17,459 nucleotides of DNA, taken from contig JANQTO010000224.1 in the NCBI GenBank assembly GCA_030731685.1, positions 1 through 17,459 of the forward strand, read 5' to 3'. Positions 3,015-14,774 of the stretch are shown piece by piece. The notes under the pieces are model-generated. The model did not search any database. It was given only the letters and a program-made list of their open reading frames with translations, and was not told the DNA's origin. The translations under genes and the position numbers were made by a program. Within the stretch, counting starts at the first letter, position 1; every line of letters starts with the position of its first letter. The DNA is from Nonlabens sp. Its GTDB lineage: Bacteria; Bacteroidota; Bacteroidia; Flavobacteriales; Flavobacteriaceae.

Positions 3015-3722
3015 TTGAACCTAGTCAAATTACATGCCAGTGCCTCTACAAATGAGGATTTAAGGGTACGCTTTCGCGAAAGCGAACTCCCCAACCTAAC
3101 CACAATATTCACACACACGCAAACGCAAGGTAAGGGGCAACGAGGTACTCGATGGGAAAGTGAACCTTATAAGAATCTAACATTCAGTATATTAATTTCC
3201 GATTTACGTAATTTTGACAACCTTTTTTCACTCAATAAATTAGTGAGTGTAGCGCTGGTAACTTGGTTACAGGAACAGTTGCGCGTCACGGCCAAAATCA
3301 AATGGCCTAACGACATACTGTCAGTTAACCACAAACTTGCTGGCGTGCTGGTTGAAACTATTTTCAAGGGCTCTCAAAAAGATCATGCGATTATAGGAAT
3401 AGGCCTTAACGTTAATCAAACCGATTTTATTCATGCGCCCAGAGCTATCTCATTGAAACAAATCACGGGAAATGTTCAGGATTTAGACAAATTGCTGTTG
3501 TCTTTCTTAAATCATTTTGAGCAGTGGTACCAAAACCCTACGGCATTAGATGCGATGTATATGAAGCATTTTTACAAACTAGATAAACTAGTTTCCTATA
3601 CCATTAATGGACATAAAGTCCAAGCCACGGTGCGCGGCGTTGACGACGACGGCAAGCTATTGCTGGAATGTGATGGTGTGCTGAGTTCCTACGAACTCAA
3701 AGAAGTGTCATGGAATTACTAA
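3015..3722 (+). CDS. birA: Biotin--[acetyl-CoA-carboxylase] ligase, monofunctional
   Basis: The enzyme activates biotin with ATP and transfers it to the target lysine of biotin carboxyl carrier proteins. The 235 residues hold the catalytic domain without the N-terminal helix-turn-helix of E. coli BirA, so it should be a ligase and not a repressor. Visible motifs are STN (11-13), the biotinyl-AMP loop GKGQRG (39-44; GRGRRG in E. coli), KWPND (96-100), the catalytic lysine in KLAGVLVE (K107) and GIGLNVN (128-134). A small C-terminal beta domain follows. The best start is TTG at 3015, because the ATG at 3008 is in another frame and the frame is closed by TAA at 3003. A 16-bp palindrome at 3069-3084 encodes residues 19-23 (RFRES), between the STN motif and the next conserved strand. 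Its TAA overlaps the stop of the convergent SRPBCC gene. Confidence 0.92.
   Translation: MNLVKLHASASTNEDLRVRFRESELPNLTTIFTHTQTQGKGQRGTRWESEPYKNLTFSILISDLRNFDNLFSLNKLVSVALVTWLQEQLRVTAKIKWPNDILSVNHKLAGVLVETIFKGSQKDHAIIGIGLNVNQTDFIHAPRAISLKQITGNVQDLDKLLLSFLNHFEQWYQNPTALDAMYMKHFYKLDKLVSYTINGHKVQATVRGVDDDGKLLLECDGVLSSYELKEVSWNY
3069..3084. repeat. Iterated 16-bp palindrome, copy 1 (inside birA)
   Basis: CGCTTTCGCGAAAGCG is a perfect palindrome and the first of three identical copies in this window (others at 6528-6543 and 12976-12991). In birA the codons are CGC TTT CGC GAA AGC, giving RFRES at residues 19-23. It is followed by AA on the plus strand. Confidence 0.95.
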
Positions 3723-4105
3723 AGTTTTTCCAGTCCTGTCGCAAGTTGCTCTAAGAACTTATTGATAGGGCCTTTAATCATCATGGCCATCATGGCATTA
3801 AAATCACCGTTAAAATGAAGTTGTGCAAGCGTTCCATTTTCTTGCTGTACCATGTCACACGTGAGTGTAAAGGCAAGTTTATCGCTGGTAGAACCTAAGA
3901 CTACCTTACTGTGCGGTATGCTTTCCTGAAGACCTAGACGTATCTCTGGCATGCCTTTAAGTCCGAAAAGGAACTTATCGGTACCCTGAACTTCAAATTT
4001 TGTATCCTCTGGCATGAGTTGTTTAAAATTCTCTACTTGTGTAAGAAATGTGTAAAGTTCTTCTTGGGATTTTGAGGTGGTTACCTGGCGACTTTCTAAG
4101 TTCAT
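3719..4105 (-). CDS. SRPBCC (START-like) family protein
   Basis: This 128-residue protein has the size and pattern of a single SRPBCC/START-like fold. An N-terminal strand (residues about 3-10) is followed by two short helices (EELYTFLTQVENFKQLMP), then a run of strands including FEVQGTD, PEIRLGLQESIP and TLTCDMVQ, and a long C-terminal helix from about 108. Such proteins bind hydrophobic ligands in a deep cavity, but nothing here identifies the ligand, and there is no signal peptide. It starts 9 bases after the pyrE stop and should be co-transcribed with it. The pairing is one I recognise in flavobacteria, which suggests but does not prove a functional link. Its TAG overlaps the birA TAA tail to tail by 3 bases. 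Confidence 0.72.
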   Translation of the reverse strand: MNLESRQVTTSKSQEELYTFLTQVENFKQLMPEDTKFEVQGTDKFLFGLKGMPEIRLGLQESIPHSKVVLGSTSDKLAFTLTCDMVQQENGTLAQLHFNGDFNAMMAMMIKGPINKFLEQLATGLEKL

Positions 4106-4114
4106 AATATTTTT

Positions 4115-4759
4115 TTAAGATGCACTCCACGTGCTAGGGTTTTCTCTCCAGCTTTTGAGTAATGCAATTTCGGTTTCATTTAAATAACCTGTACTTTGTG
4201 CTTGTAATATAAGATGTTCATAGTCGCTAAGCGTTGTGAGCTCTATGTTTTGATTTTTGAAGTTTTCAGTTGCTTCATCAAAACCGTATGAAAATAATGC
4301 AAGCATTCCCTTAACGTCTGCGCCAGCTTCTTTGAGCGCTGCAACAGCATTCAGGCTACTGTTGCCAGTGCTTATAAGGTCTTCAACAACAACTACTTTT
4401 TGACCTTTTTCGAGATGTCCTTCTACTTGATTTTTACGGCCGTGCTTTTTAGCTTCGGGACGCACGTAAACAAATGGAAGTTTCATGTAGTCAGCAACAA
4501 GCATTCCTATTCCTATGGCGCCTGTTGCTACACCAGCGATTACGTCAGGCTTGCCGTAAAGGTCCTCAATACGGTCTGCAATGTTCTCGCGCAGGTAGTT
4601 TCTTATAGTGTGGTAGGATAGGGTTACTCTATTGTCACAGTATATAGGAGAACTCCAGCCGCTTGCCCATGTGAAAGGGTCTTGTGGTTGCAATTTAATT
4701 GCTTTAATTTGCAACAATAATTCTGCTGTTTTAATTGCCGTATCTCTATCTCTAACCAT
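4115..4759 (-). CDS. pyrE: Orotate phosphoribosyltransferase
   Basis: PyrE condenses orotate with PRPP to give orotidine 5'-monophosphate in de novo pyrimidine synthesis. Starting at the ATG at 4757-4759, the protein is 214 residues. It has PFTWASGWSSPIYCDNR (28-44), the flexible catalytic loop with K104, K105 and H106, and the PRPP-binding signature VVVVEDLISTGNSS (122-135) with the acidic pair E126-D127. The frame stays open upstream to 4816, but those 19 residues (MSEVTIMAISL onward) are not family-like and overlap the start of the Nudix gene, so I chose the internal ATG. The SRPBCC gene follows in the same unit. Only 7 bases separate its start from the divergent Nudix start, so its promoter must lie within the Nudix coding region. 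Confidence 0.95.
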   Translation of the reverse strand: MVRDRDTAIKTAELLLQIKAIKLQPQDPFTWASGWSSPIYCDNRVTLSYHTIRNYLRENIADRIEDLYGKPDVIAGVATGAIGIGMLVADYMKLPFVYVRPEAKKHGRKNQVEGHLEKGQKVVVVEDLISTGNSSLNAVAALKEAGADVKGMLALFSYGFDEATENFKNQNIELTTLSDYEHLILQAQSTGYLNETEIALLKSWRENPSTWSAS

Positions 4760-4766
4760 GCCGCAA

Positions 4767-5366
4767 ATGTATAAAGTTTTTGTCAAAGAAATTGCCATAA
4801 TTGTCACCTCTGACAAAGATGCCTTTCCAGACTATGAAGTGTTCAGTTTAAAAAAGGTAGACCTTCAAAAAATTATCAGAAAAATAAGAAAGGGCAAACT
4901 AGAGCGAGTCCTATTGTATAACAAGTCTCCTAAGAAACTTCTTAAATTATTACATGAGAAATTGCCGCTGGTAATAGCTGCAGGTGGCCTTGTCATTAAC
5001 GATAAACAAGAATACCTTTTTATACACCGCAATGGTAAATGGGACTTGCCTAAGGGAAAAATGGATAAAGGTGAAACGGTAGAACAGGCTGCCGTAAGGG
5101 AAACGATAGAAGAAACTGGTGTCCAGGATTTAGATGTGACTCGGTATCTAGGTGCGACCTATCATATTTTTGATTGGAAAGAAAATAGCAAGCTTAAACT
5201 TACACACTGGTACATTATGAGCACAACCTATGGCGGGTTGCTCATGCCTCAAAATAACGAAGGTATAGATGAGGCAGTCTGGTTGTCTAAAGAAGATGCC
5301 GTAGATGCCTTAAAGGTTTCTTATGAAAATATCAAATACCTTTTTCCTTCAGACATGCTGGTTTAA
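4767..5366 (+). CDS. Nudix hydrolase
   Basis: Nudix enzymes hydrolyse nucleoside diphosphates linked to another moiety; the substrate cannot be read from this sequence. The 199 residues comprise an N-terminal region of about 65 residues (MYKVFVKEIAIIVTSDKD) and a Nudix domain. The complete Nudix box GX5EX7REUXEEXGU is at 97-119 (G97, E103, R111, E112, E115, E116, G118), preceded by GKWDLPKG. The start at 4767 (MYKVFV) fits the family; an in-frame ATG at 4758 would add MPQ and overlap the pyrE start codon. An open frame extends further upstream to 4632, but it lies antisense in pyrE and is not family-like. The gene ends in front of a run of ten adenines and faces the lipoprotein gene at 5388. 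Confidence 0.9.
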   Translation: MYKVFVKEIAIIVTSDKDAFPDYEVFSLKKVDLQKIIRKIRKGKLERVLLYNKSPKKLLKLLHEKLPLVIAAGGLVINDKQEYLFIHRNGKWDLPKGKMDKGETVEQAAVRETIEETGVQDLDVTRYLGATYHIFDWKENSKLKLTHWYIMSTTYGGLLMPQNNEGIDEAVWLSKEDAVDALKVSYENIKYLFPSDMLV

Positions 5367-5377
5367 ACCTACTCCAC

Positions 5378-5408
5378 AAAAAAAAAATTATTTGACTTTT
5401 GAGAAGTC
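5378..5408 (-). terminator. Weak possible terminator after the lipoprotein gene
   Basis: On the minus strand a 5-bp stem (GACTT with AAGTC, 5-base loop, 5394-5408) formed by the last codons of the lipoprotein gene is followed within six bases by ten thymines (5378-5387). The stem is short and overlaps the stop region, so this is only a weak candidate. The A10/T10 run is the longest homopolymer I noticed in the window. Confidence 0.25.
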
Positions 5409-6209
5409 CAGATATGCGTTGAGCTCTACAGCCGCAATATCGAGTACAATCGTATTATTTATGTACGATAGTCGGTTGGGAAGTTCTATTTGTTTTGCAA
5501 CTTGTAGATAGATACTGCCGTCTACACTTTTGCGTAGTCCTGGAACAAGTTCTTTAAAACTACCAGACTCAAAAGTGTACACCTTATCTTTTATAAAATC
5601 TTGAAAGTATTCTTGGTCACCTGGCTTAACAAATAATGCTAATGATGCAACTTCAGACTGTAGGTTTATGTCATAAATAGTCTCCACGTCTTGTTGCTTT
5701 CCTGGCCTTATGAGTTCTTGAAGGTATATGGGCGTCACACCATTTTTTCTATAACTACGCAGTAAACTACTGGTCACATTATGCTGAACATATTCTAATT
5801 CAAAACTTACAAAATCTTCATTTTCTGAAACGTGTTTTACTGTAATGCGCTGCATACCATTATCAGGATTTTTACATAACGCTTGACTTCTTTGGTTTAC
5901 GTAAATTTTGTAAACGTCTTCAATAGGTGTGCCTTGTGCGTACGTCACATTCTTAAAGTCGTAAACAAGTAGGCTGAAAATATCGTTGTTCAGTCTGGAC
6001 ACTGCTTCTTTAGAACCTTGAAAAAGCGGTAACTGAAATGTAAACCGTTGCGAGTCACAAACAACATCTTCGGCAAACGTTCCATCTGTAACGGCTCCTT
6101 CGACCGTTATTTTTTCAAGTTCTGGTGTAATTGTTTCAGTTTGTTTTTCGTTTTTGCAGCTTGAGTTAAAAAACACAATTACAATGAGAAGTAAAAACTT
6201 AATTTTCAT
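5388..6209 (-). CDS. Uncharacterised lipoprotein, possibly DUF3298-like
   Basis: I do not recognise this 273-residue protein with confidence. It begins with a signal peptide (MKIKFLLLIVIVFF) and a relaxed lipobox ending in NSSC, so C18 is the likely lipidated residue. No clear acidic surface-export signal follows (CKNEKQ), so it may stay on the periplasmic face. The mature part is strand-rich, with no transmembrane segment or catalytic motif. Two further cysteines, C51 and C112, could pair. The pattern FTFQLPLFQGSKEAVSRLNN followed later by LQELIRPGKQ vaguely resembles DUF4163/DUF3298 proteins of the periplasm, but I rate that as weak. It overlaps the end of the M14 peptidase gene by 11 bases and is last in the ddl-coaD-M14 run, so it is probably translated with the peptidase. 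Confidence 0.75.
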   Translation of the reverse strand: MKIKFLLLIVIVFFNSSCKNEKQTETITPELEKITVEGAVTDGTFAEDVVCDSQRFTFQLPLFQGSKEAVSRLNNDIFSLLVYDFKNVTYAQGTPIEDVYKIYVNQRSQALCKNPDNGMQRITVKHVSENEDFVSFELEYVQHNVTSSLLRSYRKNGVTPIYLQELIRPGKQQDVETIYDINLQSEVASLALFVKPGDQEYFQDFIKDKVYTFESGSFKELVPGLRKSVDGSIYLQVAKQIELPNRLSYINNTIVLDIAAVELNAYLDFSKVK

Positions 6210-7965
6210 AGTAAATTTTATAAATAGGGTAGGTTAAATGTGCTTTTTCGTAATTTTTTGAACGCTTGTGAATCCATTCTAGTTGAGCGTAGTTATCGCT
6301 TTTGAATTCTTTGTTACTCGATTTTTTAGCTTCAAATTCTTTTTTAATTGCTGGGTTTTCCGCAAGTAGTTTGGCCGCTGTAGCTTCAAATACGTAGCTT
6401 GAAAATCCTTCTTTTTGTTGAAGAATAGTATCAAAAAAGTTCCATCTAAAAAAGGAATCGGTCGCGGCAGGTTCTAGGGTCTCTAGAATATACCTGATAC
6501 CTGGTTGTGCAGTAGGTACGAGTATATCGCTTTCGCGAAAGCGAACTTCTCCAACAGTTTCTTCTAAAACAACACTGTTATGTATATAATGTCCTTCGTA
6601 AGGATTTGTCACGGTTCCATAGTCAGCAATGCGGTAAGTTCCTACTTTATATGTGGTATCTTCAGTGAGTGGCTGCATTTTTATGCGGTTTGCTCTCAAC
6701 AGGTCTATAACGTGCCACTGGCCGCTTGGTATCACGTAATATTCTGGAATGGTGATGCTGTCTCCAGGTATGTATTGATTATAAAACGGAACCGCCTTAG
6801 TAAATGGTTTGCTGCGGTCATAGGTGAGTAATGTGTTGCCTGTGAGTGCACTTTTGTCATTTTTAGGCTCATAGCCCATAAATTGTAGCGTGTCCGCTTT
6901 GGTTTCATCTAGCGTGTATGAAAGCGCATATTTTCTGGATTTTTCAAAATGAGCAAAAGATTCAATGCGTGCCTTTTTAATCGCTTCCATATTTTTAGTT
7001 CCCAGAGCAATCATCTCTTCCATGATTGCTTTAGTACCTGCGACGCGGTCTTTATAGGGTTTGAGCATGTGGGTTTCGACCACAAGGCCTAAAGTATTCC
7101 ATAAAGTTGTGTAACCAGACGAGTATCTAGGTGAGTCCATAAACTGGCTAAATCCACTTTCTGGTGGGCCGTTCCAAACATTTACATACGGTGTAATAGG
7201 TAAGGAGCGTTTTAAAAGGGCTTTTTCTAGGTCTGGTTGTAGGTTGTTTTGCAGGTAGGTTCCTGTTGCGCTACCCAGTTTGTTATGTTGTGTAAAAAGA
7301 TGGGTGAGCGTGTACTGGTAGTCTGCACCGTTACTCACGTGGTTGTCTATAAAAATATCTGGATTTATTTTGTGATACACTTCGTAGAACGCTCGTGCGT
7401 TGCGGGAATCGGCTTTTATAAAGTCTCTGTTTAAGTCATAATTTCGTGCATTTCCTCTAAACCCGTAGGACTCTGGCCCATTTTGGTTCGTGCGACTATC
7501 GCTATTGCGGTTTAGCGAACCACCTACGTTATAGATTGCGATGGTGGAGAATATAAGATTGTCTGGTGTTTTCACTGCTCCGGTTGCGAGGTCTCTCATG
7601 AGCATCATGCTCGCGTCTATACCATCGCTTTCACCTGCATGGATACCATTATTGACAAGTATTTTAATTGCATTTTCGTTTGCGGTGTTCCAGTCGACGG
7701 TATTTTTTGAGTATGTAATTAAATGTAATGGTTTGCCACTATCTGTAAGTCCTATTTCTTCTATGGTAATGGTCGTAAACTGTTCTGCGAGCATTTTATA
7801 ATAAGCAATGGTCTCATCATAGGTTGCTGTCTGGTTTCCATTGCCTTTTTCAAAAACAGTTTTTAAATCTTTAGGTGGGCTCGTTGATTTGCTTTCGACG
7901 CCGTTTTGCTTACAGCTGGCGAGTAAGAAGATGAGTAAAAAAAGCGTGGTTATTAAATTTTTCAT
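6199..7965 (-). CDS. M14-family zinc carboxypeptidase-like lipoprotein
   Basis: The 588-residue protein starts with a signal peptide and the lipobox LLASC (C18), so it should be an envelope-anchored lipoprotein. The M14 metallopeptidase domain covers about 45-330. The zinc ligands look complete: H109 and E112 in NGIHAGES and H209 in IDNHVSNG. The segment GNARNYDLNRDF (171-182) fits the substrate-binding region, and E297 in VVETHML fits the catalytic glutamate. The C-terminal part (about 350-588) is an accessory region I cannot assign. The family removes C-terminal residues from peptides and, in some branches, acts on murein peptides; the substrate here is unknown. The start overlaps the coaD stop by 4 bases (ATGA type) and the stop overlaps the next lipoprotein gene by 11. 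The palindrome at 6528-6543 encodes RFRES at residues 475-479. Confidence 0.9.
   Translation of the reverse strand: MKNLITTLFLLIFLLASCKQNGVESKSTSPPKDLKTVFEKGNGNQTATYDETIAYYKMLAEQFTTITIEEIGLTDSGKPLHLITYSKNTVDWNTANENAIKILVNNGIHAGESDGIDASMMLMRDLATGAVKTPDNLIFSTIAIYNVGGSLNRNSDSRTNQNGPESYGFRGNARNYDLNRDFIKADSRNARAFYEVYHKINPDIFIDNHVSNGADYQYTLTHLFTQHNKLGSATGTYLQNNLQPDLEKALLKRSLPITPYVNVWNGPPESGFSQFMDSPRYSSGYTTLWNTLGLVVETHMLKPYKDRVAGTKAIMEEMIALGTKNMEAIKKARIESFAHFEKSRKYALSYTLDETKADTLQFMGYEPKNDKSALTGNTLLTYDRSKPFTKAVPFYNQYIPGDSITIPEYYVIPSGQWHVIDLLRANRIKMQPLTEDTTYKVGTYRIADYGTVTNPYEGHYIHNSVVLEETVGEVRFRESDILVPTAQPGIRYILETLEPAATDSFFRWNFFDTILQQKEGFSSYVFEATAAKLLAENPAIKKEFEAKKSSNKEFKSDNYAQLEWIHKRSKNYEKAHLTYPIYKIYYEN
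6528..6543. repeat. Iterated 16-bp palindrome, copy 2 (inside the M14 peptidase gene)
   Basis: This perfect CGCTTTCGCGAAAGCG copy is identical to copies 1 and 3. Read on the minus strand it gives RFRES at residues 475-479 of the M14 protein, in the accessory C-terminal region (GEVRFRESDILVP). On the plus strand it is followed by AA. Confidence 0.95.
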
Positions 7966-8414
7966 AGGGATACTCCTTTAGGTACAAAGGCACTATAATC
8001 GCCTCCATTTTTCATTACGTCGCGCACTATGGATGAAGAGATAAAGCTATACTCTGGCGCAGTAAGTAAAAATGCGGTGTCTATGCCGGTCATTTTTTTG
8101 TTTGCTTGGGCAATTGATTCCTCAAATTGAAAATCGGCAGGATTGCGTAGTCCTCTTAAAATATAATGAGCACCTATGGTTTTACAGTAGTCCACAGTAA
8201 GTCCAGTATAATGAGTGACCTTTACATTTTTTAACTCAGAAAATGCTTCTTCTAAGAAAGCGACGCGCTGTGCAGCGGTAAACGTATACGTTTTTAGCGC
8301 ATTAGTACCTACGGCTATGATTAACTCGTCAAACAGTGATGCGCCTCTAGTTATAATATCTACATGTCCTAAAGTTACTGGATCAAAACTACCTGGAAAA
8401 ACTGCTATTTTCAT
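7962..8414 (-). CDS. coaD: Phosphopantetheine adenylyltransferase
   Basis: CoaD transfers AMP from ATP to 4'-phosphopantetheine, the penultimate step of coenzyme A synthesis. The 150-residue length is close to the usual for the family. Motifs are FPGSFDPVTLGH (6-17) with the nucleotidyltransferase T/HxGH signature at T14-H17, ILRGLRNPADFQFE (85-98) and the ATP-binding ISSSIVR (125-131). Its start overlaps the ddl stop by 4 bases and its stop overlaps the M14 start by 4 bases, so it sits in a tightly coupled unit. Confidence 0.97.
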   Translation of the reverse strand: MKIAVFPGSFDPVTLGHVDIITRGASLFDELIIAVGTNALKTYTFTAAQRVAFLEEAFSELKNVKVTHYTGLTVDYCKTIGAHYILRGLRNPADFQFEESIAQANKKMTGIDTAFLLTAPEYSFISSSIVRDVMKNGGDYSAFVPKGVSL

Positions 8415-9394
8415 GCGTGATGGTTTTCAATACAATCAAGTATTATCTGTGTAAAGACTTCTTTAAGCGTTTTGCCTGCCTGCTTTATTTGTTTTGGTAC
8501 GATGCTGGCTTCACTTAATCCAGGATTTGTATTAATCTCCACAAAATGCGGTCTACCTTGGTGGAAAATAAAATCGGCACGGGTAATACCTTTACAATTT
8601 AAGTATTTATAAATGCGTGCAGTTGTGTCTTTCAACATTTCGTACTGTGCAGGCGATATGCGTGCAGGTGTTATTTCTTCAGATTTTCCTAAATATTTTG
8701 CTTCATAATCAAAGAAGTCATTTTCTGAGACAATTTCGGTCGCGGGCAAAACGATTATATTATTTCCTAGACTATAAACACCTATGGAAACTTCAGTGCC
8801 TTCTAAAAAGGATTCTATAAGCACCTCGTTATCTTCTTTAAAAGCTATAGCGAGTGCGGCTTCAATCTCTGAGGTTTTATAAACCTTACTAACGCCAAAA
8901 CTACTACCACTGCGGTTTGCTTTAACAAAACAAGGCAAGCCAAGTTGTAATGCTATGTCTTGTGCGTCGTAGCTATCACCTTCGTTTAGAAACATGTTTT
9001 TTGCAGTTTCTATATTTCTACCGCGCACAATGGAAATGGTATCTCGCTTATTAAACGTAATTCCAGAGACATAAGAATTGCAGGAAGTTTGTGGAATTTT
9101 AAGCAGTTCTAGATATGCTTGGAGTTTACCATCTTCGCCTGGAGTGCCATGAATAGTATTGTAACAACAATCAAAAAGTATCTTTTCACCGGCTACCGTA
9201 ATGCTAAAATCGTTCTTGTCAATAGAGTACTTACTACCTTTCTCGTCTTCATAAAACCAACCTTCTGGCATGATATGAATGCCATATACCGCAAAGATTG
9301 TCCTATCTAAATTACTGGAAACAACGTTACCACTCTTGATGGAAATTTCCCATTCACTAGAGTAGCCGCCCATTAATACCGCAATGTTTTTCAT
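8411..9394 (-). CDS. ddl: D-alanine--D-alanine ligase
   Basis: Ddl joins two D-alanines with ATP to make the terminal dipeptide of the peptidoglycan precursor. The 327 residues show the N-terminal GGYSSEWEIS motif (9-18; E16 aligns with the substrate-binding glutamate), HGTPGEDGKLQAYLELL (82-98), the ATP-grasp segment PCFVKANRSGSSFGVSKV (154-171), and the metal- and phosphate-binding FVEINTNPGLSEASIVP (284-300). It is the first gene of the run ddl-coaD-M14-lipoprotein. An exact -7 type box lies 29 bases upstream (9424-9431). The divergent neighbour encodes a PASTA protein. Confidence 0.96.
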   Translation of the reverse strand: MKNIAVLMGGYSSEWEISIKSGNVVSSNLDRTIFAVYGIHIMPEGWFYEDEKGSKYSIDKNDFSITVAGEKILFDCCYNTIHGTPGEDGKLQAYLELLKIPQTSCNSYVSGITFNKRDTISIVRGRNIETAKNMFLNEGDSYDAQDIALQLGLPCFVKANRSGSSFGVSKVYKTSEIEAALAIAFKEDNEVLIESFLEGTEVSIGVYSLGNNIIVLPATEIVSENDFFDYEAKYLGKSEEITPARISPAQYEMLKDTTARIYKYLNCKGITRADFIFHQGRPHFVEINTNPGLSEASIVPKQIKQAGKTLKEVFTQIILDCIENHHA

Positions 9395-9423
9395 AAGTTA
9401 CTTTTTGGCAATAGCCAGAACAA

Positions 9424-9431
9424 CAAAGTTA
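9424..9431 (-). promoter_or_regulatory. Likely -7 promoter box for the ddl operon
   Basis: The minus strand reads TAACTTTG, matching the Bacteroidota TAnnTTTG box, and ends 29 bases before the ddl ATG, a normal leader length. No clear TTG-type -33 element sits at the preferred distance; a TTT lies about 17 bases upstream. Confidence 0.5.
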
Positions 9432-9448
9432 AAAAAGAAGTGGCTTAA

Positions 9449-9458
9449 AGAACGTTCT
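9449..9458. promoter_or_regulatory. Palindrome AGAACGTTCT between divergent promoter boxes
   Basis: A perfect 10-bp palindrome lies in the 204-bp gap between ddl and the PASTA gene. It sits between the two candidate -7 boxes, 17 bases from the ddl box and 7 from the PASTA-side box. That places it over the expected -33 region of both promoters, a plausible position for a shared regulator. No binding protein is known to me, and a 10-bp palindrome may arise by chance. The rest of this gap holds nothing I can identify. Confidence 0.3.
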
Positions 9459-9465
9459 CAATACG

Positions 9466-9473
9466 TATCTTTG
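9466..9473 (+). promoter_or_regulatory. Possible -7 promoter box for the PASTA-rluD operon
   Basis: TATCTTTG is an exact match to TAnnTTTG. It lies 125 bases upstream of the PASTA start, which would imply a long leader, and no good -33 element is seen. No exact box is found closer to the start. Confidence 0.4.
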
Positions 9474-9598
9474 AATATAATTTCAAACCAAACTTTAAGG
9501 AGACGCTTTTAGGCAATTTTAGAAGTTTAGTTATTACAATATCCTGTTAATAAGCAAGTTGTAAAAAATAAACCAGCAGTTCCATAATTTGATTTCAT

Positions 9599-10270
9599 AT
9601 GAATTTTGTAAGATTTCTCGCAACGAGAACGTTTTTAAAGCATTTCATACTATCTATTCTTTTAATAGTAGCGCTTATCTTCTTTTATTTTTTCATGCTA
9701 TCATGGTACACAAACCACGGTGAAGAAATTAAGGTTCCTAACATCGTCAAACTGACCGAATCTCAATTTGAAGATGTTCTTGACGACTTAGATTTAGAAT
9801 ATACAACTACCGAAAGTTCTGTTTTTAACCCAGCGTTTCCACCGAACAGTGTGCTCGAACAAAACCCTAAACCTGGACGCATGGTTAAGGAAGGTAGAAA
9901 AATGTACCTTAAATTAAACCCTGCAGACTACGCCTTAATTAAAGTGCCTAACCTTGTTTTCAAAACAAAACGACAGGCCATACCTACGCTAGAGGCGCTT
10001 GGTTTTAAAATAGGTAAATTTACCTACGAGGCAAATATTGCAAAAGACCTGGTTTTAGAAATGAGAAGTAATGGTAAAAAGGTTAAAGCTGGTGATAAAC
10101 TGAAGCGTACTACTACAATAGAACTTGTTCTGGGCGACCCAACTTTGATGCCAGACTACTATGACGATGAAACCACCATTGCGCCATCTACAAGCCCAAC
10201 AACTCCTGCAGATTCTACACAAACTACAGCGCCAGTAAATACAGGTGATACAGACAACGACAATGGTTGA
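9599..10270 (+). CDS. Single-pass membrane protein with two PASTA domains
   Basis: The 223 residues comprise a short basic cytoplasmic tail (1-15), one transmembrane segment (about 16-37) and an extracytoplasmic part. Two PASTA domains are visible, at about 44-108 (EIKVPNIVKLTESQFEDVL to KMYLKLNP) and 114-180 (IKVPNLVFKTKRQAIPTLE to IELVLGD). A disordered Thr/Pro/Ser/Asp-rich tail (181-223) follows. PASTA domains bind uncrosslinked peptidoglycan or mediate septal interactions in serine/threonine kinases and penicillin-binding proteins, but no kinase or transpeptidase domain is present here, so any sensing output is unknown. Its end overlaps the rluD start by 8 bases (ATGGTTGA), indicating coupled translation. 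It is divergent from ddl, which supports an envelope role by context only. Confidence 0.9.
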   Translation: MNFVRFLATRTFLKHFILSILLIVALIFFYFFMLSWYTNHGEEIKVPNIVKLTESQFEDVLDDLDLEYTTTESSVFNPAFPPNSVLEQNPKPGRMVKEGRKMYLKLNPADYALIKVPNLVFKTKRQAIPTLEALGFKIGKFTYEANIAKDLVLEMRSNGKKVKAGDKLKRTTTIELVLGDPTLMPDYYDDETTIAPSTSPTTPADSTQTTAPVNTGDTDNDNG

Positions 10271-11309
10271 TAACGATAGTACAGAGCAAAACGAGCACGA
10301 GGACGAAGACCTTTTTGAACATTTTCAATTTACCGCTGGTGCAAATCAAGTGCCGTTACGAGTAGACAAGTTTCTCATGAATTTCATGGAAAATGTCACT
10401 CGTAGTAAAATACAACAATCCATTAAAGATGGTAGCGTACGCGTCAATAACGATGTGGTGAAGGCAAACCAAAAAATAAAACCAGGTGACGATGTACGCG
10501 TGCTTTTTAAGCACCCAACGTACGAGGGACTTTTGGTCGCAGAGGATATACCGCTGACCATCATTCACGAAGACGATGATGTGGTCGTGGTAAATAAACC
10601 CGCAGGTATGGTTGTTCACCCAGGTCATGGAAATTATTCGGGAACGCTTATCAATGCTCTTATTCACCATTTTGATAATTTACCCAACAACAGCAGCAAT
10701 AGACCTGGTCTGGTTCATAGAATTGATAAGGATACAAGCGGTTTGCTGGTCATCGCAAAGAATGAAGAAGCCATGGCGCACCTTTCGGCACAGTTTGCGG
10801 CCAAAACAAGCGAGCGAGAGTACATTGCCATTGTTTGGGGTGGTTTTGACGAAGAGTCGGGTAGTGTAGAAGGTAACATAGGGAGACATCCTAAAAACCG
10901 TTTACAAAATACTGTTTGGCTAGGTGAAGATGCTCATAAGGGAAAACCTGCAGTTACGCACTTTAAAGTGTTGGAAGATCTAGGCTACGTTTCTGTTATA
11001 TCATGTAGGCTAGAAACGGGTAGAACGCATCAAATACGCGTTCATATGAAATATATAGGACATACCTTATTTAATGACGAGCGCTATGGCGGCGACACTA
11101 TTTTGAAAGGAACAAGCTTTACAAAATACAAGCAGTTTGTAGACAATTGTTTTAAAATTTTACCCAGACAGGCCTTGCACGCACGCACTTTAGGTTTTGA
11201 ACATCCTAAAACGAAGCAATGGATGCAGTTTTCTTGCGACATACCTAATGACATTCAAGAGTGTATAGAGAAATGGCGCAATTACGCAACAAACTCTGCC
11301 GACTCCTAA
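10263..11309 (+). CDS. rluD: RluA-family 23S rRNA pseudouridine synthase, RluD-like
   Basis: The enzyme isomerises uridines of helix 69 in 23S rRNA to pseudouridine if it is a true RluD; other RluA-family targets are possible. From the ATG at 10263 it has 348 residues. An acidic N-terminal stretch is followed by an S4 RNA-binding domain (about 30-80, VPLRVDKFLMNFM to KIKPGDDVRV). The catalytic domain contains NKPAGMVVHPGHG (111-123), the catalytic aspartate in RPGLVHRIDKDTSGLLVIAK (D155) and RTHQIRVHMK (254-263). An in-frame ATG at 10245 would add six residues and overlap the PASTA gene by 26 bases; I prefer the shorter overlap. It is followed after 27 bases by yaaA. Confidence 0.93.
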   Translation: MVDNDSTEQNEHEDEDLFEHFQFTAGANQVPLRVDKFLMNFMENVTRSKIQQSIKDGSVRVNNDVVKANQKIKPGDDVRVLFKHPTYEGLLVAEDIPLTIIHEDDDVVVVNKPAGMVVHPGHGNYSGTLINALIHHFDNLPNNSSNRPGLVHRIDKDTSGLLVIAKNEEAMAHLSAQFAAKTSEREYIAIVWGGFDEESGSVEGNIGRHPKNRLQNTVWLGEDAHKGKPAVTHFKVLEDLGYVSVISCRLETGRTHQIRVHMKYIGHTLFNDERYGGDTILKGTSFTKYKQFVDNCFKILPRQALHARTLGFEHPKTKQWMQFSCDIPNDIQECIEKWRNYATNSADS

Positions 11310-11336
11310 TAAATAGAAATTAAAAATACAGCAGTC

Positions 11337-12098
11337 ATGAAAATAATGCTCTCACCTGCAAAAACCTTGGACATGGAAAGCTCGCTGCCCGTTGACAAGT
11401 TTACCCAGCCATTATTCACAAAAGATATCGAGACCATACGCAAGGTCATGAAAAAGATGAGTGCGCCGCAGTTAGCAACACTCATGCATATATCTGGCAA
11501 CCTTGCGCAATTAAACCACCAGCGTTTTCAGGAGTTTGAAACAACTTTTTCTCAGGAAAATGCGAGACCGGCGATTTACACATTTGCTGGAGATGTCTAT
11601 ACCGGACTTGACGCTTACACTTTAGATACGAAGCATATACCTTATTTACAGGATAACGTGCGCATACTTTCCGGTCTTTATGGTTATTTGAGACCACTAG
11701 ATTTGATGCAGCCGTACCGTTTAGAAATGGGTACGAATATCGCTATTGCGAAAGCTGACAATCTATACGCATTCTGGAAAAAGAAAGTGACCGATTCTTT
11801 AAATAAAGAGATTCAGGATGGTGAACTGGTAGTAAATCTTGCAAGCAACGAGTATTTTAAAGCAGTAGATACAAAGTCGCTACGAGGTCAACTAATAAGT
11901 CCTGTTTTCAAGGACTTTAAGAATGATAAGCTCAAAGTCATATCGTTTTTTGCAAAGAAAGCACGTGGTACCATGACGCGCTATCTAGTAGAAAATAAAG
12001 CAAGTACTTTAGAAGATATAGTGCGTTTTAAAGAAGACGGTTATACATATTCTGAACAGCACACCCTAAAGGCAAACGAGCCTGTTTTTATACGATAA
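11337..12098 (+). CDS. yaaA: Peroxide stress protein YaaA (DUF328/UPF0246)
   Basis: In E. coli, YaaA lowers free intracellular iron during peroxide stress, and the family fold binds DNA; the exact mechanism here is unproven. The 253 residues match the family length and carry its hallmarks: MLSPAKTLDMES (4-15), GLYGYLRPLDLMQPYRLEMG (113-132), VVNLASNEYFKAVD (165-178) and the basic FFAKKARGTMTRYLVEN (204-220). It starts 27 bases after rluD and ends 4 bases before radC, so it sits inside the PASTA-rluD-yaaA-radC-HAD unit. Confidence 0.95.
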   Translation: MKIMLSPAKTLDMESSLPVDKFTQPLFTKDIETIRKVMKKMSAPQLATLMHISGNLAQLNHQRFQEFETTFSQENARPAIYTFAGDVYTGLDAYTLDTKHIPYLQDNVRILSGLYGYLRPLDLMQPYRLEMGTNIAIAKADNLYAFWKKKVTDSLNKEIQDGELVVNLASNEYFKAVDTKSLRGQLISPVFKDFKNDKLKVISFFAKKARGTMTRYLVENKASTLEDIVRFKEDGYTYSEQHTLKANEPVFIR

Positions 12099-12102
12099 AT
12101 AC

Positions 12103-12801
12103 ATGCCAAAGGATTCATCGCATTTTGCCATTAAGGACTGGTCAGAAAACGACAGGCCGCGAGAGAAACTGCTCGCACAAGGTAGCCATGCACTTTCAAA
12201 TGCAGAGCTGCTCGCTATACTTATAGGAAGTGGAACACGCAATATGAGTGCCGTGGAGCTGTGCAGAATGATTTACAATCATGCAGGTGAATCGCTTGAC
12301 AAACTAGGTAAACTCAATCTCAAAGAGTTAATGAAATTTAAGGGAATAGGCGAGGCCAAAGCCATTACCATAGCAGCAGCTATGGAACTGGGCAAGCGAC
12401 GCGCTTCTGAGCAACCTTTGCAAATAGTCAAAATAAGTTCTAGTGATGACGCCTTCAAACTACTACAACCCATCATAGGTGAACTGCCACACGAGGAATT
12501 CTGGACCCTATTACTTGATAATAGTAACAAAGTCATCGCAAGACACCAGGTGAGTAAAGGTGGTTTTACGGGAACGCTCGTGGACATACGGGTAGTGTTT
12601 AAACGAGCCATTGAAGAAGGTAGCGTTGCTATGATACTCGCTCATAACCATCCCAGCGGGAAACTCACGCCCAGTGTGCAGGATAAGGAAATGACCTCAA
12701 AACTTATCAAGGCTGGAGCGACACTTGACATTAAAATATTAGACCATTTAATAGTGACTGCAACAAATTTTTACAGCTTTGCAGACGAAGGCATTTTATA
12801 G
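12103..12801 (+). CDS. radC: RadC/JAB-domain DNA repair family protein
   Basis: RadC proteins carry a JAB1/MPN metalloprotease-like domain, and their role in DNA repair is still debated. The 232 residues have an N-terminal helix-hairpin-helix-like region with FKGIGEAKA (79-87) and the MPN core. That core holds the zinc motif HNHPSG (181-186) with D194 in SVQDKEM, and E131/E132 as the candidate catalytic glutamate, so the metal site looks intact. It starts 4 bases after yaaA and ends 3 bases before the HAD gene. Context is chromosomal housekeeping, without the phage or ICE genes that often surround radC copies. Confidence 0.95.
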   Translation: MPKDSSHFAIKDWSENDRPREKLLAQGSHALSNAELLAILIGSGTRNMSAVELCRMIYNHAGESLDKLGKLNLKELMKFKGIGEAKAITIAAAMELGKRRASEQPLQIVKISSSDDAFKLLQPIIGELPHEEFWTLLLDNSNKVIARHQVSKGGFTGTLVDIRVVFKRAIEEGSVAMILAHNHPSGKLTPSVQDKEMTSKLIKAGATLDIKILDHLIVTATNFYSFADEGIL

Positions 12802-12804
12802 ATT

Positions 12805-13500
12805 ATGAAGTTTACAGGCATAGAACACATATTTTTTGACCTAGACCACACACTTTGGGATTTTGATTTAAACAGCAAACTTGCATACAAGCAAATATTT
12901 CAGGAACGCAACATATCTCTAGACTTGGAGCATTTTATAGGTATTTATGAACCTTTAAATTTGGAGTTTTGGAGACGCTTTCGCGAAAGCGAAATAACCA
13001 AAGAACAACTACGATACCAAAGGCTCAAGAGTGCGTTTGATGCCTGCGATTATGAGGTAAACGATAATGAAATAGACCTCATTGCCGATTTGTACATTGC
13101 ATACTTGCCGAATAACAATCATCTTTTTGATGGATGTATGGAGCTACTGGACGCGCTCAAACCAAAGTATAAGCTTCACTTAATTACAAATGGGTTTGAA
13201 GAAGTGCAGCATTTAAAGGTAAAGCAAGCAGGTCTTTTGAGTTATTTTGACTTGATTCTTACGGGTGAGGCGGCAGGAGTTAAAAAGCCACATCCAGATA
13301 TTTTTCACCAAGCATTAGAACGTACCGGCGCAAGGGTAGATAACAGCATCATGATAGGCGACAGCTTTGATGCAGATGTTAAGGGAGCACAAAACATAGG
13401 CATGCCTGCAATTTGGTTTTATAGGACTGATGAGCAAATTCCAGAAGGGCAGCTCGTTGCTAGAGAATTGAATGAAATTCATTCCTTTTTTGATTTGTAG
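12805..13500 (+). CDS. HAD-superfamily phosphatase, YjjG-like pyrimidine nucleotidase
   Basis: The 231 residues form a subfamily-I HAD hydrolase. The nucleophile and acid/base aspartates are D12 and D14 in FFDLDHTLWDF, motif II is LITNG (126-130), the motif III lysine is in GVKKPHP (158-164), and motif IV is MIGDSFDAD (183-191) with D186. The helical cap covers about 20-105. The FDLDHTLWDF start and overall pattern resemble YjjG, which dephosphorylates pyrimidine nucleoside monophosphates including non-canonical ones; substrate assignment from sequence alone is tentative. The palindrome at 12976-12991 encodes RFRES at residues 58-62 in the cap, where relatives have a short variable segment before ITKEQLRYQRL. 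It begins 3 bases after radC, and its 3' end overlaps the convergent rarA by 22 bases. Confidence 0.88.
   Translation: MKFTGIEHIFFDLDHTLWDFDLNSKLAYKQIFQERNISLDLEHFIGIYEPLNLEFWRRFRESEITKEQLRYQRLKSAFDACDYEVNDNEIDLIADLYIAYLPNNNHLFDGCMELLDALKPKYKLHLITNGFEEVQHLKVKQAGLLSYFDLILTGEAAGVKKPHPDIFHQALERTGARVDNSIMIGDSFDADVKGAQNIGMPAIWFYRTDEQIPEGQLVARELNEIHSFFDL
12976..12991. repeat. Iterated 16-bp palindrome, copy 3 (inside the HAD gene)
   Basis: This perfect CGCTTTCGCGAAAGCG copy is identical to copies 1 and 2. It encodes RFRES at residues 58-62 of the HAD protein and is followed by AA on the plus strand. Confidence 0.95.
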
Positions 13501-14774
13501 TCGTAGTGATTTTTCCAACGTTTTTCTAGGAAATCGCGCTGTGATTCTTCACGCGGGTTAGCTCCAGGTTCATAGATGGTGGTTCCACTGATTTCATTAG
13601 GTAGAAACTCATTAAACGCAAAGTTTGCATCATGGTCATGAGCATATTTGTAGGTTTCGCCGTATCCCAGTTGTTTCATTAATCGGGTAGGAGCGTTGCG
13701 CAATCCTAGTGGCACGGGTAAATCACCTGTTTGTTTTACGAGTTGTTGCGCCTTGCCTATCGCGAGATAACTCGCGTTGCTCTTTATAGAGGTAGCAAGA
13801 TAAATAGCGCACTGGCTTAGTATAATGCGGGACTCAGGATAGCCTATTGTCGACACTGCCTGGAAACAATTGTTTGCCATGATAAGCGCGGTAGGGTTTG
13901 CGTTTCCTATATCTTCGCTAGCAAGTATGAGCATGCGACGTGCAATAAATTTTAGGTCCTCGCCACCTTCAATCATCCTGGCAAGCCAATATACCGACGC
14001 ATTAGGGTCGCTACCGCGTATACTTTTAATAAATGCACTTATGATATCGTAATGTTGCTCGCCTGTTTTATCGTAGCGCGCAGGATTTGCCTGTATTTGT
14101 TCCTGAACCATTTTATCTGTGATGATAATGGGCTCTTCGGTCTGTGAGTTTATAACCAGTTCAAAAATATTGAGGAGTTTACGCGCATCGCCACCACTTA
14201 TGCGTAATAGTGCGTTTGTTTCTTTTACCTCAATATTCTTTTTGATTAAAATAGTGTCGTTCTTAAGAGCTCTGTTAATCAATGATTCTAGGTCTTCTTT
14301 AGAAAAAGCATCGAGTACATATACTTGGCAGCGGGAAAGTAGTGCCGGTATCACCTCAAAACTTGGATTTTCAGTAGTTGCTCCTATGAGCGTTACCCAA
14401 CCTTTCTCAACAGCTGCAAGCAAAGAATCTTGTTGGGATTTGCTAAATCTATGTATCTCATCTATAAAAAGAATAGGATTTCGTGCTGTAAACAGGCCAC
14501 CGGAACTTTTAGATTTTTCTATAACTTCCCGTACATCTTTTACGCCACTGTTGATTGCGCTTAAGGTATAGAAAGGTCGTTTGCTTTCTTGAGCTATAAT
14601 TTGAGCTAGTGTAGTTTTGCCTGTTCCAGGTGGTCCCCATAAAATGAGTGATGGAATAGTACCGTTTAAGACATGTTGACGTAATGTTCCCTTAGGACCT
14701 ATAAGGTGCTGCTGGCTCAAATATTCGTCTAAATTCTGAGGTCTTATACGTTCTGCAAGTGGTTCTTGATTCAT
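13479..14774 (-). CDS. rarA: Replication-associated recombination protein A (MgsA/WRNIP1 family)
   Basis: RarA is a tetrameric AAA+ ATPase related to clamp loaders that acts at stalled replication forks. With the ATG at 14774 it has 431 residues and begins MNQEPLAERIRPQNLDEYL, the usual family start; the open frame to 14819 would add 15 residues that do not look conserved. Walker A is GPPGTGKT (47-54), Walker B ILFIDE (101-106), and sensor 1 GATTENPSFEVIPALLSRC (131-149). The C-terminal half carries the family segments DPNASVYWLARMIEGGED and LASEDIGNANP. The gene faces the HAD gene and overlaps its last 22 bases. It is divergent from the rhomboid gene across 91 bases that hold a near-palindrome (14792-14810). 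Confidence 0.96.
   Translation of the reverse strand: MNQEPLAERIRPQNLDEYLSQQHLIGPKGTLRQHVLNGTIPSLILWGPPGTGKTTLAQIIAQESKRPFYTLSAINSGVKDVREVIEKSKSSGGLFTARNPILFIDEIHRFSKSQQDSLLAAVEKGWVTLIGATTENPSFEVIPALLSRCQVYVLDAFSKEDLESLINRALKNDTILIKKNIEVKETNALLRISGGDARKLLNIFELVINSQTEEPIIITDKMVQEQIQANPARYDKTGEQHYDIISAFIKSIRGSDPNASVYWLARMIEGGEDLKFIARRMLILASEDIGNANPTALIMANNCFQAVSTIGYPESRIILSQCAIYLATSIKSNASYLAIGKAQQLVKQTGDLPVPLGLRNAPTRLMKQLGYGETYKYAHDHDANFAFNEFLPNEISGTTIYEPGANPREESQRDFLEKRWKNHYDYKSKKE

Follow-up and report, generated by a model that had tools for sequence, protein, structure and literature searches.

A 16-bp palindrome evenly iterated through one flavobacterial clade, a possible chromosome-organising site

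We analysed a 17,459-nucleotide contig of Nonlabens sp. (JANQTO010000224.1 of assembly GCA_030731685.1, C224 in our numbering; "the window" below means this whole stretch), which carries three perfect copies of the 16-bp palindrome CGCTTTCGCGAAAGCG, and found the same 16-mer iterated by the hundred through the genomes of one clade of Flavobacteriaceae. The array points to an undescribed protein that would read the 16-mer and probably organises the chromosome. Our leading, if still tentative, interpretation is that the 16-mer is a protein-recognition site, most likely one with a chromosome-organising role. This interpretation rests on copy counts, the clade boundary, the flanking sequence, a spacing with an exclusion zone of ~1-1.5 kb, and turnover in permissive places.

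Hundreds of copies within one clade

The source assembly (2.50 Mb in 543 contigs, 77.4% complete) holds 384 copies of the 16-mer, while the reversed control sequence has none. The count is thus far from background, and the copy numbers bear out the original prediction of a genome-wide iterated element comparable in style to the HIP1 palindrome of cyanobacteria. In a survey of 59 genomes, its own included, all 22 other members of the genus carried 180-737 copies each, one of 13 family members from other genera carried four, and all 23 genomes from other families in the order carried none. Across 397 genomes of the family, with the source assembly and three congeners counted in, hundreds of copies occurred only in the genus itself, in Dokdonia sinensis (G250, 630 copies) and in one further genus (G234, 153 copies); the remaining 391 had 0-13 each. 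The 12-bp core draws the same boundary, with 445-917 occurrences in the six carriers sampled, 0-21 elsewhere, and 0-3 for its reversed control.

Detailed statistics come mainly from one relative within the genus, G004, of whose 3.19-Mb chromosome 1.90 Mb (60%) was read in 27 blocks and genes were predicted from open frames by a simple rule, not by a gene finder; figures below refer to this sample unless another genome is named. It contains 393 perfect copies, against a Markov expectation of 0.0002-0.0008 (orders 1 to 4). Matches at 0 to 5 mismatches number 393, 82, 28, 25, 58 and 357, and each of four control 16-mers matched at most three places with up to 2 mismatches. Among the 82 single-mismatch copies, the outermost base accounts for 45 and a T to C change at position 6 for 17. 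The inner sequence TTTCGCGAAA occurs 465 times, 393 of them with both outer arms. In 480 kb of D. sinensis we counted 86, 27, 25 and 30 copies at 0 to 3 mismatches; loss of one arm is tolerated more in Dokdonia than in G004. The window itself gave four matches with up to 3 mismatches, against a mean of 0.04 in dinucleotide shuffles, and none of 200 shuffles reached four. In the open-licence literature searched, the 16-mer was found neither by exact sequence nor by palindrome or uptake-sequence terms for this group, and the papers containing TTTCGCGAAA bore titles unrelated to these bacteria.

The copies are evenly spaced and avoid one another

The strongest single result is the spacing of the copies. 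None of 366 gaps was shorter than 500 bp, whereas 1000 simulations gave 37.5 such gaps on average and never fewer than 20. Only 6 gaps were below 1 kb, against 71 at random, and 44 below 2 kb, against 129; binned, the deficit is clear up to 1.5 kb and almost gone at 1.5-2 kb. The coefficient of variation (CV) of the gaps between perfect copies was 0.757 versus 0.974 at random. Inclusion of copies with up to 2 mismatches lowered it to 0.664, at a mean gap of 3.6 kb, and in the 480 kb of D. sinensis from 0.789 to 0.580, at a mean gap of 3.5 kb; G234 yielded 7 and 18 gaps, too few for a judgement of spacing. Imperfect copies also keep away from perfect ones. With both neighbours inside a block (74, 41 and 20 cases), 5% of the 1-mismatch copies, 10% of those with 2-3 mismatches and 0% of those interrupted by a hairpin (described below) lay within 1 kb of a perfect copy, versus 43% at random. 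Since they avoid perfect copies and lower the CV, the imperfect copies belong to the array. For the hairpin-bearing ones, the place may simply be that of the perfect copy that took up the hairpin.

Even spacing with exclusion indicates that the presence of a site is selected per stretch of chromosome and not per gene. The 16-mer is selected for coverage, genome-wide, and selection would keep at least one site per few kilobases of chromosome. Density in the 27 blocks ranges from 1.3 to 3.3 per 10 kb, and no origin-to-terminus pattern is evident by eye in these sampled blocks of one chromosome. Eight gaps exceed 15 kb. Read by eye from protein starts, most of them coincide with islands, an insertion sequence (IS) array or the ribosomal-protein operon: they comprise that operon, mobile or prophage-like islands, a pilus region with repeats, the IS array, a glycosyltransferase-rich cluster, and one stretch of apparently ordinary carbohydrate-metabolism genes. 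Within a 26-kb site-free island, locus L079 (G004 1861-1875 kb) holds five near-identical transposase genes in 14 kb, IS110-like by eye.

Flanking sequence and placement

The conserved signal extends well beyond the 16-mer. On the left, C is avoided between -1 and roughly -18. The preferred bases at -1 to -6 are T, T, T/G, A, G/T and T, and T and G are again preferred at -9, -11/-12 and -14/-15. The right flank shows the complementary pattern, with G avoided. The frequency of C in the flank is 0.08 for coding and 0.06 for intergenic copies; further out it is 0.20 and 0.17, respectively. The same pattern appears around 16 copies of the window's own genome, 77 of Dokdonia and 54 of Nonlabens (C 0.08-0.09 against 0.16-0.19 further out), and is weaker around phage copies (C 0.11). 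Comparing the two half-flanks of each copy, we observed agreement in excess at +/-1 (z 5.85) and none beyond.

Degenerate flanks without pairing beyond +/-1 are what dimer contacts on double-stranded DNA would leave, and they argue against a longer hairpin as the functional unit. The 16-mer would thus be the core of a ~50-bp two-fold symmetric site for a sequence-specific DNA-binding protein, putatively a homodimer, shared by the genus, Dokdonia and one further genus.

With regard to genes, 57.5% of the copies (226/393) lie within predicted genes, against 88% expected, and intergenic copies are enriched ~3.7-fold, alike between tandem, convergent and divergent gene pairs. The peptides read from 224 in-gene copies are AFAKA (134), RFRES (53) and LSRKR (37). 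In-gene depletion together with uniform intergenic enrichment indicates that copies sit where they are tolerated. Given this placement, a promoter or terminator role is rejected.

An element acting in RNA, such as a terminator or mRNA hairpin, is scarcely probable. The palindrome does fold into a stem with a CGCG loop, a 34-mer and the hairpin-bearing 64-mer form more stable folds than their shuffles (z -2.79 and -3.79), and the +/-1 pair covaries. However, T precedes and A follows the stem, the reverse of a terminator; convergent genes are not preferred; 226 copies are in predicted genes; the bare 20-mer folds no better than its shuffles (z -1.19); and covariation stops at +/-1. Each strand of every perfect copy, including that at 3069-3084 of the window, also contains GCGAAAGC, which we take to be a DNA mini-hairpin sequence of unusual stability.

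Turnover at orthologous positions

The copies in the window, their host genes and two related positions are as follows.

3069..3084, palindrome copy 1, perfect 16 bp (CGCTTTCGCGAAAGCG), inside the BirA-like gene, read RFRES
3015..3722, plus strand, host of copy 1, biotin/lipoate protein ligase family, BirA-like (PF03099)
6528..6543, palindrome copy 2, perfect 16 bp, inside the M14 peptidase gene (minus strand), read RFRES
6199..7965, minus strand, host of copy 2, M14 zinc carboxypeptidase family (PF00246)
12976..12991, palindrome copy 3, perfect 16 bp, inside the HAD hydrolase gene, read RFRES
12805..13500, plus strand, host of copy 3, HAD-like hydrolase (PF13419, PF00702)
11741..11756, degenerate copy CGCTATTGCGAAAGCT, 3 mismatches, of doubtful function
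14295..14310, site-free rarA/mgsA position TTCTTTAGAAAAAGCA, 6 mismatches, AFSKE on the minus strand

All three exact 16-mers first noticed in the window are therefore present. They also share one reading frame, Arg-Phe-Arg-Glu-Ser, which had been missed. The observation that their flanks are not duplicated stands, since the 20-bp flanks differ in sequence, but they are alike in composition: the left 18 bp hold 0, 2 and 0 C and the right 18 bp 0, 1 and 1 G, so that copy 1 has neither. In G004, copy 1 is kept at 16/16 at the same codon position in a protein of 53% identity, and copy 2 at 16/16 in one of 66%.

The third copy shows how sites come and go. Six of the 23 genus genomes have it exact; in the remaining 17 the position differs by 7-10 mismatches, and 13 of these read K/MFREN and not RFRES. 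For a copy in rarA, 1.3 kb away, sequence is available from 22 genomes, of which 14 have it exact, one (G002) is one mismatch off and seven have 5-7 mismatches (counted by eye). The two copies never occur together in these 22 genomes. On a locus tree built without the site columns, the HAD copy requires 3 changes, also on supported branches, and the rarA copy 4, 3 of them on supported branches; a single clade for the HAD copy is rejected by the approximately unbiased test (p 5.7e-51).

Of the seven copies covered from the window's genome to G004, five matched at 16/16, one had 1 mismatch and one 8; in the reverse direction six of seven were exact and one had 11. Between G004 and D. sinensis, 3 of 13 covered copies were exact and 10 had 7-13 mismatches, with 6 more gapped or uncovered; from D. 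sinensis to G004 the figures were 3 of 11 exact and 8 with 9-13 mismatches, with 5 more gapped or uncovered. In comparisons involving G234, all five covered copies had no site at the partner (6-12 mismatches), and 4 more were uncovered. A blastn search of 129 copies, taken from many loci, against G004 returned 43 matches. The site was covered in 23 of them, where 17 copies were exact, one was a single base off, two were unrelated and three had indels, a conservation inflated by alignments anchored on the site itself.

At covered ortholog positions the 16-mer is thus exact, one base off, or replaced ungapped by unrelated sequence, and has not been inserted as extra DNA; this holds for the 16-mer and not for the 20-bp hairpin inside some copies. 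The replacements are also in frame, which agrees with the original view that the copies are not a duplicated gene segment. A self-spreading palindrome, also suggested then, is weakened by the same ungapped in-frame gains and losses, by the near-compatible peptides and by the mutual avoidance of copies. A self-spreading element or copied segment would account for the high copy number and for ortholog positions that are either exact (or one base off) or unrelated. Yet with in-frame replacement, avoidance and repeated gain and loss at the same codons, we give it very little credence, judging from the covered, ungapped ortholog pairs and from the blastn alignments other than the three of 23 with indels. 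Since the peptides at site-free positions (AFSKE, xFREN) are near-compatible with the site, it probably arose by selected point changes, wherever a position suited best, and not by insertion. Windows of 120 bp gave no sign that the HAD and rarA sites came by local introgression.

Candidate readers and the uptake alternative

A fuller version of our interpretation, slightly less probable, has a clade-specific dimeric protein with ~50-bp sites every 3-4 kb along the whole chromosome forming an undescribed chromosome-organising system, in which selection on spacing would be strict enough for the appearance of a new site to be accompanied by the loss of a neighbour. Its role would most likely be anchoring, bridging or the delimitation of topological domains. 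A nucleoid- or chromosome-organising site had been listed among the original possibilities, and as one of them it is supported.

The main rival, which we consider rather unlikely, is a DNA-uptake tag: competent cells would import site-bearing DNA and biased recombination (molecular drive) would spread the site, one per recombination tract being sufficient. If true, it would be the first in Bacteroidota and the first palindromic one, for we know of no uptake tag in Bacteroidota and of none that is palindromic. Even spacing, permissive locations, scarcity in islands, the lack of intermediates at the HAD position and sites in phages all fit an uptake tag. In Neisseria, moreover, as described in PMC2397512, the spacing of the DNA uptake sequence (DUS) matches the length of conversion fragments, and recent DUSs often face homologous regions without a DUS-like motif. 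In contrast to the perfectly palindromic 16-mer, the known uptake sequences treated in PMC1939737 are not palindromes. ComEC was detected in 34 of 34 genomes tested, the 10 of 10 site-free relatives among them included, and therefore does not set carriers apart; a pilus/secretin ATPase is not common to all carriers, and no identity peak in 120-bp windows surrounds the rarA site of G009 or the HAD site of the window.

Several points weigh against a chromosome-organising site. Even spacing by itself is no proof of an architectural role: that of the Haemophilus uptake sequences was once taken as architectural, as PMC1939737 relates, and a coverage-like distribution, a bias towards permissive places and rarity in insertions also mark known uptake sequences (described in PMC2397512). 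Of the three independent HAD-rarA pairs, two are opposite and one is tied (sign test p 0.5), and the detailed statistics rest mainly on G004, 60% read, with simple open-frame gene calls. Searches for PF00145, PF01555, a ParB paralogue and a pilus/secretin cluster found no binding protein. A Noc-type ParB paralogue is absent: carriers and non-carriers do not differ, 31 of the 34 genomes having a single ParB_N match and only G014, G018 and G019 having extra ones.

The other candidate factors fared no better. The cytosine methylase PF00145 is missing from 9 of 22 genus genomes, which nevertheless hold 255-680 copies, and from G234; PF01555 is missing from 10 of 22, and G007, G008 and G010 lack both despite 579, 680 and 427 copies. 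A methylation motif, among the roles first proposed, is weakened by these genomes without PF00145, and also because the 16-mer is the main unit. G004 carries a cluster of secretin, T2SSE ATPase, T2SSF and pilin genes (L037:9216-18698, G004 329-339 kb) where sites are sparse; two large direct repeats, whose genes have no known role, flank it. The ATPase of the cluster is not matched in the window's genome or in G013, and the cluster is not supported as the cognate factor. G007 has a distant match (46% identity), and in all 60 of 299 family genomes have one, scattered and with site-poor or site-free genera among them. The small pilin of the cluster matched the ComP_DUS model, though below its cut-off (E 4e-4). 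Scanning G004 with regular expressions for DnaA, ParB, methylases and others yielded little.

Relation to other iterated motifs

ParB (at parS) and Noc bind, as dimers, to palindromes of 14-16 bp whose arms are TTTC/GAAA. The 16-mer resembles them in length and arms, but its half-site spacing is off by one base per arm, and it is spread evenly over the chromosome and not regionally; the exact parS 16-mer occurs once in the sampled 60% of G004. Chi sites occur about once per 5 kb in E. coli, a density like that of the 16-mer, but are short and not palindromic. The uptake signal sequence (USS) of Haemophilus has a degenerate flank beside its core. As described for DUS and USS in PMC2397512, PMC1939737 and PMC7811141, those sequences likewise reach hundreds of copies or more, occupy permissive places and are scarce in insertions, and they share with the 16-mer a spacing related to function and a core with a degenerate flank. 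Unlike them, the 16-mer is palindromic, has a longer exact core, forms no close pairs and has no receptor candidate, and its density is lower than that of USS (about 1 per kb).

HIP1 and the alternate HIPs of cyanobacteria, as presented in PMC4390886, are likewise perfect GC-rich palindromes iterated through the genomes of a clade, with one-base departures at the ends and with a repeat module, SDR5, precisely inserted inside, comparable to the hairpin inside the 16-mer. The same source still calls the function of iterated palindromes a mystery. HIP1 is mostly 6-8 bp long at ~1-2 per kb, whereas our motif has 16 bp at ~1 per 5 kb; it further differs from HIP1 in its exclusion zone, its symmetric degenerate flanks and in having no cognate cytosine methylase common to all carriers. 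A HIP-type motif that a cognate DNA methyltransferase and mismatch repair create and maintain is a very improbable reading. Palindromy, iteration, GC-richness and departures at the outermost base (45/82, as for HIP1 in PMC4390886) do favour it, and TCGCGA, with the 16-mers masked, occurs 396 times against ~255 expected (~1.5-fold). Part of that excess, however, consists of near-copies of the 16-mer (72 masked TTTCGCGAAA), and the scattered absences of PF00145 and PF01555 described above count against it. The 16-mer is overrepresented as a HIP would be; no methyltransferase accompanies it throughout, as judged for PF00145 and PF01555 only.

The 16-mer is thus longer, cleaner and strikingly evenly spaced. 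A sharp clade boundary, site-free relatives and gains and losses on the tree open its function to experiment in marine bacteria that can be cultured and are not known as pathogens. Should a protein indeed read it, the array would represent a new manner in which a bacterial chromosome is laid out.

Hairpin-interrupted copies

G004 contains 43 hairpins of the CCTGCCTG...CAGGCAGG type, 20-21 bp long, all but five of which lie in intact or decayed 16-mers, as judged by eye. The insertion point is nearly always between bases 10 and 11 of the 16-mer as counted in one orientation, at the edge of CGCG (in two cases it is a base further on), and the target is not duplicated. Five of the 23 genus genomes contain exact forms, in 17, 21, 5, 2 and 1 copies. 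A mobile hairpin using the 16-mer as its target is the simplest reading.

The insertions bear on one more alternative, a site at which a type II topoisomerase or another enzyme would cut strongly, staggered by 4 nt about the central CGCG. Dozens of G004 copies with a hairpin at almost always the same position, the edge of CGCG, are what such cleavage might leave. Since the hairpin lacks a target duplication, is in its exact form confined to those five genomes, and would be explained equally well by a transposase choosing the 16-mer as target, we regard a cleavage site as improbable.

Copies in phages and heavy-metal efflux genes

AT-rich viral loci, chosen because they hold the site and hence subject to selection bias, contain 42 perfect copies in 306 kb, 28 of them distinct by flank. 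Genes with copies inside them match the portal and large terminase families (L136) and an HNH endonuclease (L130); further copies are next to a tape-measure gene (L146) and an integrase gene (L121). On a 37.4-kb phage contig, 6 copies over three stretches amount to about the host density. Phage contigs carrying the site are L136, L153, L132, L121, L146 and L130. Single GC-rich matches look like chance.

Clusters of sites were also observed in eight other family genomes, taken from the 42 with 1-13 copies and not including the four richest (6-13 copies); all lie within or next to genes of heavy-metal efflux, as named by eye. In L266-L275 and L035, with CusA/CzcA-like, TolC-like and metal ATPase genes (by eye), site spacings of 933, 2446 and 3460 bp recur. 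Such recurrence indicates that these efflux genes have probably passed through the site-bearing clade, and the 16-mer could thus serve as a watermark of genes that have left it.

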